Source of the DNA: an uncultured Verrucomicrobiota bacterium
Lineage (GTDB): Bacteria > Verrucomicrobiota > Kiritimatiellia > Kiritimatiellales > Tichowtungiaceae
NCBI GenBank assembly: GCA_903826865.1
Contig: CAIKGD010000077.1
Coordinates: 1 to 46,720 of the forward strand
Direction of reading: 5' to 3'
Length of the DNA: 46,720 nucleotides
A program made the position numbers and the translations under genes. The notes beneath the pieces were generated by a model that saw only the letters and a program-made list of their open reading frames with translations, made no database searches and was not told where the DNA came from. This document shows, piece by piece, positions 40,381 through 46,720 of this stretch (position 1 is the stretch's first letter; each line of letters opens with the position of its first letter).

Positions 40381-40740
40381 CGCAGGCAGAGTGTATCGAC
40401 CGCTCTTTGGTTCGCCAAGGGGAGGAAAGTCCGGACTCCGCAGGGCAGGACGTTCCGTGGTTAACGCGGAAACTCCGGTGCTAAATCGCCGGGGATGGAA
40501 AGTGCCACAGAAATTATACCGCCCTGAGGGCGCTTCGGCGCATCGAAGGGTAAGGGTGAAATGGTGGGGTAAAAGCCCACCGCTCCAAGGGTAACCGCGG
40601 AGGCAGGGTAAACCCCGTCCGGAGCAAGATCAAATAGGGAACGAGGAGCTGCCCGCTCCACTTGAGTTCCGGGTTGATCGCATTAGATAAATGGTCGACT
40701 CCTTCGGGAGAACAGAATCCGGCTTACAGCTCTGCCTGCG
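40381..40740 (+). ncRNA. rnpB: RNase P RNA, bacterial type A
   Basis: Catalytic RNA that removes 5' leaders from tRNA precursors. The conserved cores are present: GAGGAAAGTCCGGACTC (40422-40438), CAGAAATTATACCGCC near 40508, GGTAAGGGTGAAATGGTGG near 40549, GTAAACCCC near 40610 and ACAGAATCCGGCTTACAG near the 3' end. The P1 helix is exact: CGCAGGCAGA at 40381-40390 pairs with TCTGCCTGCG at 40731-40740. About 360 nt. It follows the zinc-ribbon gene. Confidence 0.97.
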
Positions 40741-40748
40741 CTTTTTGG

Positions 40749-40888
40749 ACGTAACGAGTACTGCGTATTCCGTAATCGGTGATATCTCTTCGACAGAAAC
40801 TGGTGCCGAAAAGCCGGTTTCTGGAATTCGCTTTAATTCGAGTTCATTCGCGGTCGCTTTTCCTCATTACGCATTACTCGTTACGTAG
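40749..40888. repeat. Inverted repeat of ACGTAACGAGTA type after rnpB
   Basis: ACGTAACGAGTACTGCGTA near 40751 is matched by the inverted TACGCATTACTCGTTACGT near 40867. The ~100 bases between are AT-balanced filler with no gene. It lies between rnpB and the convergent hydE gene; possible terminator or dispersed repeat. Confidence 0.55.
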
Positions 40889-41972
40889 TACGTTTCTCAT
40901 AATGCTTCGAATCGCCCCACTGGTTGAAGCCGATGGTTTCGCCGATGGACTGGATGCGGCGGGTCAGGCAGCCGCGGCACATAGATGAATTTTCATCGAG
41001 GCACGGTTTATTGTCATAGAGCACATAGTTCGGGCGGAACTCGGTTTCGGTGACGTTAGGCATGATGACGTTTGCGCCGCACTTAAGTCCCATTTCCCGT
41101 CCGGAATGTTCCAGGGCCTGAAGCGCGGTGGCGGCGGCGATGTTAACGTCCTTAAGCACAATGCGCGTTACGGCGATCATCTTGAGACCGAGCGTCAGCG
41201 CAGCCTGTTTCTGTTCGTCAGTGTAGGGCGGAATCGCTTGGCCCATCGGCGTGTCGCGGTGCGGGATATACGGCCCCATGCCGACCATGTCGATGTCGAG
41301 ATCCTTCATAAACAGGATGTCGTTGACCAGATCGTCCGTCGTCTGGCCGGGCAGCCCCATCAACACGCCGGTGCCGACCTGATAGCCGGTTTTTTTGAGC
41401 AGGGCAAGGCAGTTTTTGCGCGCTTCAAAATCGTGATCGGCCGGATGCAGTTTTTTATACAGCTCCGGGTTGGTGGTTTCGATGCGGAGCAGGTAACGGT
41501 GAGCGCCCGCTTCGCGCCCGCGGCGGTAAGTTTCTTCCGTTTGTTCGCCGAGCGACAGCGTGACGCCCAGTTTGCCGTCTGTGGCCGCTTTGATCTGCCG
41601 GAGCACCCGTTCAATCAGTTCGATATACGCCGCATCCTGCCGCTCGCCGGACTGAATCACGACCGAGCCGTATTCGTTTTCAAACGCCCAGATCGCTTCG
41701 CGTACCATTTCCTCTTCGTCCATCTGGAAACGTTTCACGTTCCGGTTGCTTTTGCGGATGCCGCAGTAGTAGCAGTCCTTGATGCAGATATTGCTGCACT
41801 CAATGATGCCGCGGAAATAGGCAACCTTACCGACATACTTGGCTTTCACCCGGTACGCGCAGTCGTACAGCGCCTGAAGCTCCTTTTCATCGGAGAGCTC
41901 GAGCAAGTACCGGATCTTATCCGGAGTCAACGCTTCGTCGCGGTCAACTTTTTTTAAAATGTGATCTGTCAT
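40881..41972 (-). CDS. hydE: [FeFe] hydrogenase maturation radical-SAM enzyme HydE
   Basis: 363 residues from ATG 41972 (MTDHILKKVDRDEALTP); the frame is open to 42092 but those residues overlap hydG. The SAM cluster is CIKDCYYCG (CxxxCxxC). A second set of cysteines near the C terminus (CLDENSSMCRGCLTRR) can carry the auxiliary cluster. HydE acts on the Fe(CO)2CN complex from HydG to build the H-cluster precursor. Last gene of the maturation operon, 19 bases after hydG. Length matches known HydE (about 350). Confidence 0.96.
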   Translation of the reverse strand: MTDHILKKVDRDEALTPDKIRYLLELSDEKELQALYDCAYRVKAKYVGKVAYFRGIIECSNICIKDCYYCGIRKSNRNVKRFQMDEEEMVREAIWAFENEYGSVVIQSGERQDAAYIELIERVLRQIKAATDGKLGVTLSLGEQTEETYRRGREAGAHRYLLRIETTNPELYKKLHPADHDFEARKNCLALLKKTGYQVGTGVLMGLPGQTTDDLVNDILFMKDLDIDMVGMGPYIPHRDTPMGQAIPPYTDEQKQAALTLGLKMIAVTRIVLKDVNIAAATALQALEHSGREMGLKCGANVIMPNVTETEFRPNYVLYDNKPCLDENSSMCRGCLTRRIQSIGETIGFNQWGDSKHYEKRTT

Positions 41973-41991: not shown

Positions 41992-43401
41992 TCAAAAATA
42001 CAAATCCCGGTCACCGGCTTTAATCTGCTCAATACGTTCGAGCAGTTTGGTTTTCTGGTCGCCGTCGGGCATACGTTCGAGTTCGCGCTCAATCTGTTTC
42101 ATGCCGACCTTGCGGGTTTCCGGCGACGAGTAGTCCTCCATGTATTCGAGGAAAGTCAGCACGGCGTTCGGCGTGCAGAAGCGTTTCACGAAGCCGGGGA
42201 TGGCGAATTCCATGAAATGCTCGCCGGTACGGCCGAGGCGGTAGCATCCGGTGCAGAAGCTGGGAATAAAGTCGGCTTCGCAGAGTTCGCGGATCACCTG
42301 ATCGAGCGAGCGGCCGTCGTTGAGCACAAACTGGCTCTTTTTGTAGGCTTCACCGTCTTCCTGTGAATACGCCCCGATGCCGATGTTCGAGCCGGCATCA
42401 ATCTGCGACACGCCGAACTGAATAATTTCATTTCGCAGTTCGACCGATTCGCGGCAGGTGAGAATCAGGCCGGTGTATGGAACCGAAAGGCGCAGAATGG
42501 CGACGAGCCGTTTGAAGTCGTAGTCGCTGACTTCATAGGGCGGCCGGTCGCACATGGCCGTGCCGATAGCCGGTTCAATGCGCGGGAACGAAATCGTGTG
42601 CGGCCCGACGTGGAATTTTTCTTCCAGATGAATGGTGTGGTAGAGCAGGGCCATCGTTTCAAAACGCCAGTCGAACAGTCCCATCAGCGCGCCGATACCG
42701 ACGTCGTCGATGCCCGCCTGCTGTGCGCGGTCGAGTCCGTGCAACCGCCAGAGATAACTGCTCTTCGGGCCGGACGGATGCATCGTTTTGTAGGTTTCCT
42801 GATGATAGGTCTCCTGAAAAATCTGGTAAGTGCCGATACCGGACGATTTAACCAGCTTAAAGCCTTCAACATCCAGCGGTGCGGCGTTGATGTTGACGCG
42901 CCGGATTTCACCGTTGCCGTGTTTCTGTTTGTAAACTTCCAGCACGGTGTCGTGGATAAACTGCGCGTCGTACTGCGGGTGCTCGCCGTAAACCAGAATC
43001 AGCCGTTTGTGTCCGCGCTTGACCAGCGCTTCGATCTCGCGATCCAGTTCGGGCATCGTCAGCGTTTTGCGCGAAACTTCTTTGTTGGTGCAGCGGAACC
43101 CGCAGTATTGGCAGTTATTGATGCATTCGTTGCCGATATAAAGCGGGGCGAACAGCACGATACGGTTGCCGTAGACGCGCTGCTTCAGCTCGCGGGCGCC
43201 TTCGAAGATTTCATTCACCAGCTCCGGATCCTCGGCGTTGATTAAGACCGCCATTTCTTCGGGATCGAGCCGGTTTTTATTCAGTGACTTCTGAATTACT
43301 TGGCGGACACGTTCCGGCGTTGGATTTTTTGTTTTTTCCAGCCATTGGAAAATTTCGTTTTCGGGAATGAAGGACTTCAGCCCTTCGGTATCGATTTTCA
43401 T
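41992..43401 (-). CDS. hydG: [FeFe] hydrogenase maturation tyrosine lyase HydG
   Basis: 469 residues, normal length. ThiH-like radical-SAM enzyme that splits tyrosine to give CO and CN for the H-cluster. SAM cluster CINNCQYCG (CxxxCxxC), then the HydG-only C-terminal cluster CTGCYRLGRTGEHF with the third ligand 22 residues later (KRFC), i.e. CxxCx22C. This C-terminal motif separates HydG from ThiH. Overlaps hydF by 4 bp. Confidence 0.97.
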   Translation of the reverse strand: MKIDTEGLKSFIPENEIFQWLEKTKNPTPERVRQVIQKSLNKNRLDPEEMAVLINAEDPELVNEIFEGARELKQRVYGNRIVLFAPLYIGNECINNCQYCGFRCTNKEVSRKTLTMPELDREIEALVKRGHKRLILVYGEHPQYDAQFIHDTVLEVYKQKHGNGEIRRVNINAAPLDVEGFKLVKSSGIGTYQIFQETYHQETYKTMHPSGPKSSYLWRLHGLDRAQQAGIDDVGIGALMGLFDWRFETMALLYHTIHLEEKFHVGPHTISFPRIEPAIGTAMCDRPPYEVSDYDFKRLVAILRLSVPYTGLILTCRESVELRNEIIQFGVSQIDAGSNIGIGAYSQEDGEAYKKSQFVLNDGRSLDQVIRELCEADFIPSFCTGCYRLGRTGEHFMEFAIPGFVKRFCTPNAVLTFLEYMEDYSSPETRKVGMKQIERELERMPDGDQKTKLLERIEQIKAGDRDLYF

Positions 43402-44609
43402 TTGAGATTCCTTTCAAAAGCATCCAGTGCGGCGGGGAAGGGCGAGAGAACGCGTTTCAGTACGCCCTGAGTCTGAGAAATACAAAGTCCGTAGTTGGTA
43501 ATCGGCACGCCGGCCGCCTCGCACTTTTCAATGCGCGAGAGAATTTCGCGCCGGTTGTGCATACAGCCGCCGCACTGCACGACGAGGCTGTAGTCGGCCA
43601 GATTGTCCGGAAAGTCGCGTCCGGCAAAGACATCAATTTGCAGTTCACATCCGCAGTACTGGCGCAGCCAGCGCGGAATTTTTACGCGGCCGATATCGTC
43701 TTCCGCCGCGTGGTGGCTGCACGACTCGGCAATCAGCACCTTGTCGCCGTTTTTGAGCCGGTCAATCGCCGCAGCGCCCGCCGCCAGTTTCGGCAGATCG
43801 CCTTTCAGCCGCGCAAAGAGGATCGAGAAGGTTGTGCAGGGAACATTAGCCGGCGTGTCGCCGATCATCTTCAGCACCACCTGGGAATCGCAGACGACGA
43901 GATCCGGTGGCGTTTTTAATTGGCTGAGCAGGTGTGCATATTCACGCTCTTTGACGACCAGCGCGGCGGCATCGTTGTCGAGCGCGTCGCGGATGGTGGA
44001 AACCTGCGGCAGAATCAGACGCCCTTTCGGGGCCTGCAAGTCAATCGGCACGATCAAAATGGCAAGGCCGCCCGGTTTCACCAGATCGCCAACCAGCGGC
44101 GGCGGCTGGATAAATTCTTCAGGGCAGACCGCAATCAGGCGGGCTTTTAGCTGTGCCAGCACTTTTTCACGGGAAGCAAAGTCAGTTGAATTACACGGAA
44201 GAAAAGACGGATCGGATGGATTGGATATATCTGATTTGTTTGCGACTCGAATGACCGGAATATTTTTTTCTTTGGCGCGGTTTCCAACCGCCTGTTCAAA
44301 CTCACCAAACTGATCGCCTTCGCAAATTAAAATAATCACGTCGGCACGGTCAAAAACCTTTGCGGTTTTTTCGATGCGCTTTCCGCCGAGCACCGTGGTG
44401 TCATCAAGTCCGGCGGTGTCTATAAATACCACCGGCCCAATGGGTAGCAACTCCATTGTTTTTTCGACGGTATCGGTTGTTGTCCCCGGCTGCTCCGAGA
44501 CAATCGAAACATCCTGACCGGCGATCAGATTCAGAAAGCTCGATTTGCCGACGTTTGTGCGGCCGAACAGAGCAATATGCAGTCGTAAACTTTTCGGGGC
44601 GGTTTTCAT
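43398..44609 (-). CDS. hydF: [FeFe] hydrogenase maturation GTPase HydF
   Basis: 403 residues. GTPase half: ALFGRTNVGKSSFLNLIAG (P-loop), GTTTD, DTAGLDD and NKSD. C-terminal scaffold half with Cys297-x-His299 (ESCSHH) and CGGC (C346, C349) for the 4Fe-4S cluster that accepts the diiron precursor. Family knowledge says HCxxC; here the preceding residue is Gln345, so one candidate ligand differs. Residues ~127-141 (SNPSDPSFLPCNSTDF) after NKSD look like an extra loop. Overlaps both neighbours by 4 bp. Confidence 0.96.
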   Translation of the reverse strand: MKTAPKSLRLHIALFGRTNVGKSSFLNLIAGQDVSIVSEQPGTTTDTVEKTMELLPIGPVVFIDTAGLDDTTVLGGKRIEKTAKVFDRADVIILICEGDQFGEFEQAVGNRAKEKNIPVIRVANKSDISNPSDPSFLPCNSTDFASREKVLAQLKARLIAVCPEEFIQPPPLVGDLVKPGGLAILIVPIDLQAPKGRLILPQVSTIRDALDNDAAALVVKEREYAHLLSQLKTPPDLVVCDSQVVLKMIGDTPANVPCTTFSILFARLKGDLPKLAAGAAAIDRLKNGDKVLIAESCSHHAAEDDIGRVKIPRWLRQYCGCELQIDVFAGRDFPDNLADYSLVVQCGGCMHNRREILSRIEKCEAAGVPITNYGLCISQTQGVLKRVLSPFPAALDAFERNLK

Positions 44610-45934
44610 TTATAGCCCAATGACATTAAATTTTGAGGAGAAAGCGTTCTCTTCACGACTTCTTCTCCCAGTTCCTTTTCTAAAAACTCACGGATGTTTC
44701 CTTTGCCGTGCTGTTCGAACTGCCTGAACAGTTCCGAGCAGCGGTCGTAGCCAAGCATCGGGACAAACGCGGTGATGATTTCGGGAGAAGCATACAGCCT
44801 TTCGCGGCAGCGTCCTTGATCCGCATCAATTTCTGCAGCGTGTTTTGCCAGCATCAGCGCGGCGGCGATCAGCAGGTCAATGGAATCAAGCAGAGCGTCG
44901 GCTAGCAGCGGCATAAACTCGCAAATCTGAAGCGAACCGCGCGCGGCGCAATCGGCGATAATCCCGTTGTTCGCTTTCACTTTGATTCCAATCTGGATGA
45001 CGGACTCCAGAATGACCGGATTGACTTTGCCGGGCATGATAGAAGAACCGGCCTGCACAGCAGGCAGTTTAATTTCGCCGAGCATCATCAGACGGCGCAG
45101 ATCGTCGCTGACTTTGATCAGGTTAACGGCGGCGGCATTGAGAATCCCGGAGACTTCGACGAAACAGTCGGCATTTGCAGTGGCCTCAACCATATTCTCG
45201 GCACGGCTCAGGCCGAGTCCGGTCACTTCGCGCAATTTTTCGACGACGAGAAAAATATAACTGCGCGGCGCAGTAAGGCCGGTTCCGATAGCGGTGCCAC
45301 CGAGATTAACGGTACGCAACCGTTCTTCACATTTAAACGTGCGCCAGCGGTCGCGGGCAAAAGCTTCGGCGAATGAGGCGAACTGAGAGCCAAGCGTAAG
45401 CGGCACGGCATCAACAAGTTCTGTTTTTCCAAGGACAGGAAGATCGGCCCATTTTTTTTCCAATGTTTGAAACGTGCCTTGCAGTGCGGCAAACGCTTCG
45501 CTCAATTCGCGCACACCGCCGATGGAAGCGATTTTAAGTGCAGTCGGATAAGTATCGTTGGTGGACTGGTGCAGGTTGATCTCTTCGAGCGGGTGCGCTC
45601 CGGCCATATTACCGATGATTTCATTGACCATCATGTTGGTTGAAGTTCCGGCGCCACCCTGCAAGGCTGAAAGATGAGGAATGAAAGATGAGAGATGAAA
45701 ATGGTCACACGCGGAGATAATTTTATCCGCTCTGGCGCTGTCGAGAAAGCCGAGTTCCTTATTGGCGAGGGCGCAGGCTTTTTTCACCTGACCATATGCT
45801 TTGAGCAGTCGCGGGTTCACGGAGCTTCCGGGAATTTTAAAATTCTCCAGTGCCCGGGCGGTATGAATTCCCCACGGCGTATCGGCCGGAAGTTCTTTTT
45901 CTCCAAGGAAATCTGTTTCTGTGCGGGTTCTCAT
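44606..45934 (-). CDS. aspA: Aspartate ammonia-lyase (aspartase) in the hydrogenase maturation operon
   Basis: 442 residues, slightly short for the family (~470). Fumarase/aspartase superfamily: LQGGAGTSTNMMVNEI, HLQSTNDTYPTALK-type region (INLHQSTNDTYPTALKIA), TGLTAPRSYIF and the signature GSSIMPGKVNPV. It converts aspartate to fumarate and ammonia. Residues ~77-89 (CDHFHLSSFIPHL) come from a GAAAGATGAGGAATG-type repeat that replaces the usual sequence before QGGAGTS. ATGA overlaps on both sides tie it to the TM1266-type gene and hydF, so its product probably serves the hydrogenase pathway. Aspartase versus fumarase: the operon context favours aspartase. Confidence 0.92.
   Translation of the reverse strand: MRTRTETDFLGEKELPADTPWGIHTARALENFKIPGSSVNPRLLKAYGQVKKACALANKELGFLDSARADKIISACDHFHLSSFIPHLSALQGGAGTSTNMMVNEIIGNMAGAHPLEEINLHQSTNDTYPTALKIASIGGVRELSEAFAALQGTFQTLEKKWADLPVLGKTELVDAVPLTLGSQFASFAEAFARDRWRTFKCEERLRTVNLGGTAIGTGLTAPRSYIFLVVEKLREVTGLGLSRAENMVEATANADCFVEVSGILNAAAVNLIKVSDDLRRLMMLGEIKLPAVQAGSSIMPGKVNPVILESVIQIGIKVKANNGIIADCAARGSLQICEFMPLLADALLDSIDLLIAAALMLAKHAAEIDADQGRCRERLYASPEIITAFVPMLGYDRCSELFRQFEQHGKGNIREFLEKELGEEVVKRTLSPQNLMSLGYK
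45667..45704. repeat. GAAAGATGAGGAATG-type repeat inside aspA
   Basis: Three near-copies of GAAAGATGAG in tandem (CTGAAAGATGAGGAATG, AAAGATGAGAGATGAAAATGG). Purine-rich on the plus strand, unlike the surrounding codons. Read in frame by aspA. Similar runs are known as intergenic filler in environmental genomes (general knowledge). Confidence 0.55.
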
Positions 45935-46182
45935 TTAGCTTTGCTCAACATGGATTTGACCGAGATGCCGGGCAGAGCGCCGAGTTTTCCGGTGAGAACA
46001 CCAAGTTCATCGGTGGTGGCATCGACGATCAGCGTAATGGCGGAGCAGGAGCGTTTTTGGTAGGGTACGCCCATCCGGGCAACGATCAGGTCGCCGTAGT
46101 TTCCCAGCAGTTCGTTGACCGCCGCTGCGTTGACTTCCCGGTTCTCAATGATGATTCCGATGAATCCCAATCTTTTTTGCAT
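45931..46182 (-). CDS. TM1266-type iron-only hydrogenase system regulator (ACT-like)
   Basis: 83 residues. MQKRLGFIGIIIENREVNAAAVNELL, VARMGVPYQKRSCSAITLIVDATTDELGVL and TGKLGALPGISVKSM match the small family named after T. maritima TM1266, found beside hydE, hydG and hydF. Fold resembles the ACT/NikR C-terminal domain; no DNA-binding part is attached, so it may sense a ligand. GGGAGG directly upstream of ATG 46182 is a strong ribosome site and overlaps the end of the terminator U-run. First gene of the maturation operon. Confidence 0.93.
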   Translation of the reverse strand: MQKRLGFIGIIIENREVNAAAVNELLGNYGDLIVARMGVPYQKRSCSAITLIVDATTDELGVLTGKLGALPGISVKSMLSKAK

Positions 46183-46194
46183 AGCATTCCTCCC

Positions 46195-46230
46195 AAAAAA
46201 AAGTGCTCCGCCGCATTTCTGCGGCGGAGC
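46195..46230 (-). terminator. Intrinsic terminator/attenuator before the TM1266-type gene
   Basis: On the minus strand a perfect 10-bp stem, GCTCCGCCGC / GCGGCGGAGC with loop AGAAAT (46205-46230), is followed by ACTTTTTTTT (46196-46204). It lies between the hydA stop and the maturation genes, only 13 bases or so before the ribosome site. A TTTCTGCGGC segment at 46304-46313 (minus strand) is exactly complementary to its left arm and loop (GCCGCAGAAA). Confidence 0.8.
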
Positions 46231-46336
46231 ATGGAGACGGCTGGCAGCTACGCAAACCGTTTTCCTAAATTGTCCGTTTGCCTTGGGTCAGGGAAGGCCC
46301 CTTGCCGCAGAAAACTCAAGCACGGTACACCAGTTT
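46231..46336 (-). promoter_or_regulatory. Structured leader of the H-cluster maturation operon, possible riboswitch
   Basis: The 106 bases upstream of the terminator can form a closing stem (TTTCTGCGGC with GCCGCAGAAA) that would prevent the terminator, enclosing about 79 nt with further stems: AGGG/CCCT and GCAAAC/GTTTGC. Conserved-looking single-strand words are CTGCCAGCCG and CCATGCTC. The words remind me of the Moco/Tuco RNA class, but from memory only. Alternatively a protein-binding attenuator. No ORF of use here. Confidence 0.4.
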
Positions 46337-46720
46337 CTACTTTTTGTACACTTTTCGTTCCTGATAGACGGTGTGCAAAAGTTCGTGAGCCTTGTGGCTC
46401 AACGGTTTACCAAGAAAATCTTCATATATTTTAGTGATCATCGGGTTGTGGTGGGAGCAGCGCCGGACGCTTTTCTCGTCATCCGAGTAAATCCCGGCAA
46501 TCCGCTTTTTGCGGATCTCATCAGTCGCGCCGTGGGGCTGTCCGCCCCCGCCGATACATCCGCCGCGGCAGGCCATCACTTCGATGAAGTGGAAAGGCAG
46601 GTCCTCGCCTTTTTCCTTCGCCGCGCGCACCTGATCGAGCACCGCCGCGACGTTCCCCATCTGGTGGGCGACTGCGATGCGGATTTTGGTGCCTTTGATG
46701 TTCACTTCGGCGGCCTTCAC
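46337..46720 (-). CDS. hydA: [FeFe] hydrogenase catalytic subunit (C-terminal part)
   Basis: Only the last 127 residues lie in the window; the gene continues past the right edge. The third H-cluster motif is EVMACRGGCIGGGGQP with its two cysteines, the last of which bridges the 4Fe-4S and diiron parts. The rest (SDDEKSVRRCSHHNPMITKI, FLGKPLSHKAHELLHTVY) is the small-subunit-like tail found in HydA and HndD proteins. Arg instead of Pro in MACRGGC is a common variant. Whether it belongs to an electron-bifurcating HndABCD-type enzyme cannot be seen from here. Confidence 0.96.
   Translation of the reverse strand: MKAAEVNIKGTKIRIAVAHQMGNVAAVLDQVRAAKEKGEDLPFHFIEVMACRGGCIGGGGQPHGATDEIRKKRIAGIYSDDEKSVRRCSHHNPMITKIYEDFLGKPLSHKAHELLHTVYQERKVYKK

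Follow-up and report, generated by a model that had tools for sequence, protein, structure and literature searches.

A conserved leader RNA, likely a riboswitch, ahead of [FeFe]-hydrogenase maturation genes in the class Kiritimatiellia

The maturation operon and its leader

The window (the whole 46,720-nucleotide stretch of DNA analysed here, from an uncultured bacterium of the class Kiritimatiellia) carries on its minus strand, in this order, the end of hydA, a leader, a TM1266-family gene, a lyase gene, hydF, hydG and hydE. The 3' end of hydA (46337..46720) was assigned from the sequence, and its full-length homologue in genome G008 is an NADH-dependent [FeFe] hydrogenase of group A6. The TM1266-family gene (45931..46182; TIGR03959, 99.5 bits; PF21699) is a relative of PDB 2nzc, while the three maturases are encoded by hydF (43398..44609; TIGR03918, 521 bits), hydG (41992..43401; TIGR03955, 488 bits) and hydE (40881..41972, with an inferred ATG start; TIGR03956, 341 bits). 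The lyase (44606..45934) belongs to the aspartase/fumarase superfamily and scores below the equivalog cut-offs; its gene sits between TM1266 and hydF in the operons of relatives as well. On the plus strand, a bacterial RNase P class A RNA occupies positions 40383–40742 (243.5 bits).

The leader ends in an intrinsic terminator on the minus strand, identified both by computation and by reading the sequence: a 12-bp hairpin closed by a GAAA loop (TGCTCCGCCGCA-GAAA-TGCGGCGGAGCA, 46204..46231), then a single C and a T8 tract (46195..46202). The first-pass annotation had placed a 10-bp stem and the T8 here; the position and the tract are as described, and the stem is two pairs longer. The likely ribosome binding site, GGGAGGA (46188..46194, minus strand), follows directly, and a terminator scan detected no second terminator-like site in the leader region. 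Upstream on the same strand, the segment TTTCTGCGGC (46304..46313) is exactly complementary over 10 nt to GCCGCAGAAA (46216..46225), which comprises part of the left arm and the loop of the terminator (p ~0.002 against shuffles). This complement, proposed from the window alone, is kept at 9–11 bp in all ten genus copies that precede TM1266. Across the eight genus copies that can be aligned, the left arm of the terminator has one variable column and the right arm five, the pattern expected if the left arm is steadier because it has two partners. Together these features bear out the earlier view of the region as a terminator/antiterminator leader ahead of H-cluster maturation genes. A possible but weak promoter (TGTACA, 17 nt, TACCGT; 46322..46350, minus strand) lies within the 3' end of hydA, and sequence comparison places similar boxes in relatives (TTTACA-TACACT and TTTACA-TACATT); a strict consensus scan of the window for sigma-70 promoters returned none.

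No Rfam 15 family matched the window leader at the gathering threshold, and no relevant match appeared in the leaders of relatives at E≤1. A suggested resemblance to the Moco/Tuco RNA (RF01055) fell away: that RNA is likewise a leader of metal-cofactor genes, but its covariance model matched neither the window (E up to 10) nor the leaders of relatives (E up to 1). Known SAM and metal riboswitches gave no match in the leaders either, so that the comparison with covariance models leaves the element in no known class. The first-pass annotation had also suggested that RNA control of hydrogenase maturation would be new; the subset of the literature searched, in which few subscription journals were represented, yielded no account of an RNA that regulates [FeFe]-hydrogenase maturation.

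A covarying core hairpin and its gene targets

Of the ~79 nt enclosed between the complementary segments, said earlier to form two further stems, one conserved irregular hairpin is present, whereas the spacer outside it differs from species to species. This core, a candidate aptamer recognised by comparison (46281..46311, minus strand), starts with P1 (UCU/AGG, 46311–46309 with 46283–46281), followed by a GC/A junction, P2 (GG/CC, 46306 and 46305 with 46285 and 46286), a CA/GAC junction and P3 (AG[G]GG/CCCU). The antiterminator 5' strand overlaps its P1 and P2. The folding energy of the window copy does not reveal the core, a 36-mer folded alone being unremarkable (z 0.83). Within the genus we counted 11 copies in 10 of 14 genomes, with 28 invariant positions in the first ~45 nt, and a diverged version is seen in the TM1266 leaders of other families. 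Throughout the class the core is an irregular hairpin of ~31 nt with P1 (YCU/AGG), P2 (GG/CC) and P3, and the alignment gives the consensus YCCUG[C/A]GG-YR-AGG-stem-loop-CUGA-nn-CC-AAGG.

P2 and P3 covary across families, in agreement with the check by homologous alignment that had been proposed. Double-sided changes in these stems numbered 28 in a first alignment (6.9 in shuffles), 19 in a second (5.4) and 41 among 44 sequences (10.3), a level reached by none of 500 shuffles in any of the three cases, and the signal was lost once partner columns were slid by one. Alignments A2, A5 and A9 are the stronger tests because, unlike A8, they were not fitted to the structure. P2 varies from GG/CC to GU/AC (L116) and GA/UC (L129), while P1 and the outer P3 pairs are almost invariant. 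Covariation favours neither of two drawings of these outer pairs, one with A-U, G-C and a bulged G, the other with G-U and G-C next to a tandem G.A. The 5' leader thus contains a covarying structured domain, as expected of a riboswitch.

The first covariance model, R1, found nothing convincing beyond the genus, and a pattern drawn tightly around the genus, scanned over GTDB genome contigs, returned the genus and four chance matches in coding sequence; the wider models R2 and R3 followed from reading TM1266 leaders in other families. With R3 (E≤0.05), 346 genomes of the class yielded 30 matches, 22 at TM1266, six at hydG and two in coding sequence, the last (in G051 and G140) being discarded on that ground. 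The window copy is picked up by R2 at 43.8 bits and missed by the strict R3 scan. In a phylum sample of 388 genomes (E≤0.02) every match fell within the class. Overall, ~17 families of the class have the core at the head of a TM1266-hydEFG or hydG operon, an eighteenth has a divergent variant, and more hydG leaders with the core occur in families f29–f31. Second, distantly related TM1266-like genes (CPF_0552-type) lack it in their leaders. As 28 of the 30 matches precede TM1266 or hydG (one TM1266 case being degenerate), the element is tied to the genes of one pathway, another property of riboswitches. In five genomes (G001, G334, G336, G337 and G343; leaders L017, L207, L208, L230 and L231) it precedes TM1266, which is followed by a gene for a TonB-dependent receptor.

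Two individual loci deserve mention. G084 (L200, contig C62) has a degenerate element and a TM1266 remnant lacking a start codon, and HydA, HydE, HydF and HydG were not detected in this genome. G006 (C49) has an orphan element with a terminator after hydA (L006, 1500–1622) and no TM1266 behind it, while its second copy (L011) precedes TM1266.

Family f2 (L097–L115) carries a variant whose inner stem is longer, with P2 pairs GC/GC, UC/GA or GA/UC and a covariation of its own (12 double-sided changes against 5.6 in shuffles, a level reached in two of 500). Its leaders lack a terminator. A downstream block (UCUGAAGGUUUCG...CGGAAC-GGAGGAG) is conserved ahead of the TM1266 start in this family, with a small covarying hairpin before the Shine-Dalgarno (SD) sequence.

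This distribution bears on what might control the leader. TM1266 directly follows most copies and is annotated as a putative regulator, and irregular hairpins commonly serve as protein sites, which makes it conceivable, at rather low probability, that TM1266 or another maturation factor binds the hairpin and feeds back on termination or translation. Such an autoregulation element would be expected always to adjoin TM1266, yet in families f28–f31 it is hydG that carries the element, whereas TM1266 is encoded elsewhere and lacks a copy, and in G272 the element occurs although no TM1266 gene was detected. It appears unlikely that the RNA is a riboswitch for some general cue (Fe(II), S-adenosylmethionine or a different common metabolite) that happens to serve this regulon alone. 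The maturases do employ iron and radical SAM chemistry, and the closest solved structures to the TonB receptor are heme, siderophore and B12 receptors; against this, none of the class matches precedes other iron or SAM genes, and the known riboswitches for SAM and metals do not match.

Alternative pairing and the predicted sign of control

The 5' strand of the core, CUGCGG, can pair alternatively with the left arm and loop of the terminator or with an anti-SD strand. A script scored a terminator in 27 of 29 leaders of the first set, one or two of them weak. Outside the genus the alternative helix reached p≤0.05 in 10 of 36 leaders, with a combined p of ~5e-9 (5e-7 once five near-duplicates were dropped), values to be read with shuffles that keep base composition only and with leaders that are related to one another. 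The flanks of the helix change together, as in TTTCTGCGGC/GCCGCAGAAA, TAACTGCGGTA/TGCCGCAGTTG, CATCCTGCGG/TCGCAGGATG and TTCTGAGGCGGAGG/TTTCCGTCTCAGAA; leaders with such co-changing flanks are L153, L128, L218 (14 bp), and L212 and L214 (13 bp). A convincing alternative helix is absent in L129, L130, L217, L228 and others. In L132, L149, L212, L214 and L218 the antiterminator strand takes in the P3 strand too. Because the antiterminator strand is the 5' strand of the core, core and antiterminator are mutually exclusive; at the level of sequence, and with L129, L130, L217, L228 and others excepted, the expression platform is therefore exclusive with the structured domain, as in a riboswitch. 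In three hydG leaders (L202, L203 and L225) the core 3' strand of P1, AAGGAG, is itself the ribosome site, and inspection suggests that the downstream partner of the core 5' strand may cover the SD as well in L212, L218 and L219.

The shared 5' strand and the hydG ribosome site inside the core both imply that a folded core should switch expression OFF. They oppose the ON-type switch of the first-pass annotation, in which a long-range CUGCGG/CCGCAG helix, stabilised by a ligand, would act as the closing stem and keep the terminator from forming. The helix is real and conserved, and the 5' pyrimidine strand of f2 can pair with the SD, so that either sign fits that family; but the long-range strand is half of the covarying core (with the P3 strand included in several species), and hydG leaders without a long-range partner have a core that covers the ribosome site, leaving the ON switch very improbable. 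That the leader is an ordinary constitutive hydA terminator, or a set of mRNA-stabilising hairpins with chance complementarity, is scarcely credible: the end of hydA does lie immediately upstream in the window and the orphan copy in G006 follows hydA, but the core covaries, the alternative pairing is conserved, and the position before TM1266 or hydG holds class-wide regardless of hydA.

Good support exists for a new structured RNA in these leaders, one whose platform acts by attenuation or by hiding the SD, and the element is likely a riboswitch. We favour, as the probable explanation, a cis-acting leader with two exclusive folds that would serve as a feedback OFF riboswitch of H-cluster cofactor supply. 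A stabilised hairpin would leave the 5' strand unable to pair downstream; the result would be a formed terminator in the window and the majority of TM1266 leaders and a hidden ribosome site in hydG leaders, with expression OFF in either case. Without stabilisation, the CUGCGG strand would disarm the terminator or the anti-SD and expression would be ON. The stabiliser is presumably a small molecule signalling that the H-cluster, or its diiron precursor, is in sufficient supply. The gene set supports this cofactor-supply reading, consisting of the maturases or, where these were undetected, of TM1266 and the TonB receptor. Counting against the proposal are the near-invariance of P1 and the outer P3 pairs, the leaders lacking a convincing alternative helix, the f2 variant with its missing terminator and ambiguous sign, and the possibility that a protein acts in place of the ligand.

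TonB receptors and HydA without detected maturases

The five receptors in the regulon are orthologous (37–43% identity). HydG was not detected in these genomes at E≤1e-80, and matches to HydF and HydE lay far under the curated cut-offs, none being true. HydA was found in G001, G334, G337 and G343 and was not found in G336 (79% complete); the other genomes are 90% (G001), 93% (G334), 85% (G337) and 94% (G343) complete. The HydA sequences of G334, G337 and G343 were read and have intact H-cluster motifs (TSC[CS]PxW, MPCxxKxxE and ExMxCxGGC). Assuming independence, we infer a probability of ~1e-5 for the chance loss of a clustered maturase locus in all five. The exclusion between receptor and maturases is not strict, since G044 carries both the receptor and HydG. 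The five genomes suggest an OFF riboswitch over diiron cofactor supply, whether by synthesis or by uptake.

The cobalamin riboswitch (RF00174) controls cob genes and btuB. The element resembles it in that, as an OFF-type leader, it would govern genes for making a cofactor as well as a TonB-dependent receptor, and differs in its unrelated sequence and fold and in its regulon of [FeFe]-hydrogenase maturation. With small OFF riboswitches (such as preQ1 and the SAM classes) it shares a short core, alternative pairing of the 5' strand of that core, and the use of both transcriptional and translational platforms by members of a single class; unlike theirs, its core is a single irregular hairpin absent from Rfam.

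We speculate that what the element senses, and what the receptor brings into the cell, is the H-cluster or a precursor. The most specific form of this idea, that the RNA responds to the diiron subcluster, or to a late precursor, by repressing hydEFG or import through a dedicated TonB-dependent receptor, and that bacteria with intact H-cluster motifs in HydA but no maturases salvage the cofactor from neighbours, is a conjecture that we consider doubtful. Natural salvage is chemically conceivable because an added synthetic diiron complex ([2Fe]adt) activates apo-HydA inside living E. coli (PMC6984386). Several eukaryotes also have HydA but no maturases, and how their HydA is activated is an open question (PMC9161772). 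Through a dedicated RNA, the sensing of H-cluster supply by cells would become accessible to genetics. Its regulon reveals genomes that encode HydA together with a hydrogenase-linked TonB receptor but where HydE, HydF and HydG were undetected. The element points to a possible uptake route for the cofactor, and natural salvage can now be tested.

The receptor is present in 15 genomes of the class, and the core was not found ahead of TonB receptors in families f9, f34 and f49. In G293, G301, G304, G328 and G344 the receptor gene adjoins [FeFe]-hydrogenase genes, in G304 by ORF reading only. At L257, L258, L261, L263 and L255, loci without the RNA element, an orthologous receptor lies beside [FeFe]-hydrogenase genes of the group A6 type.
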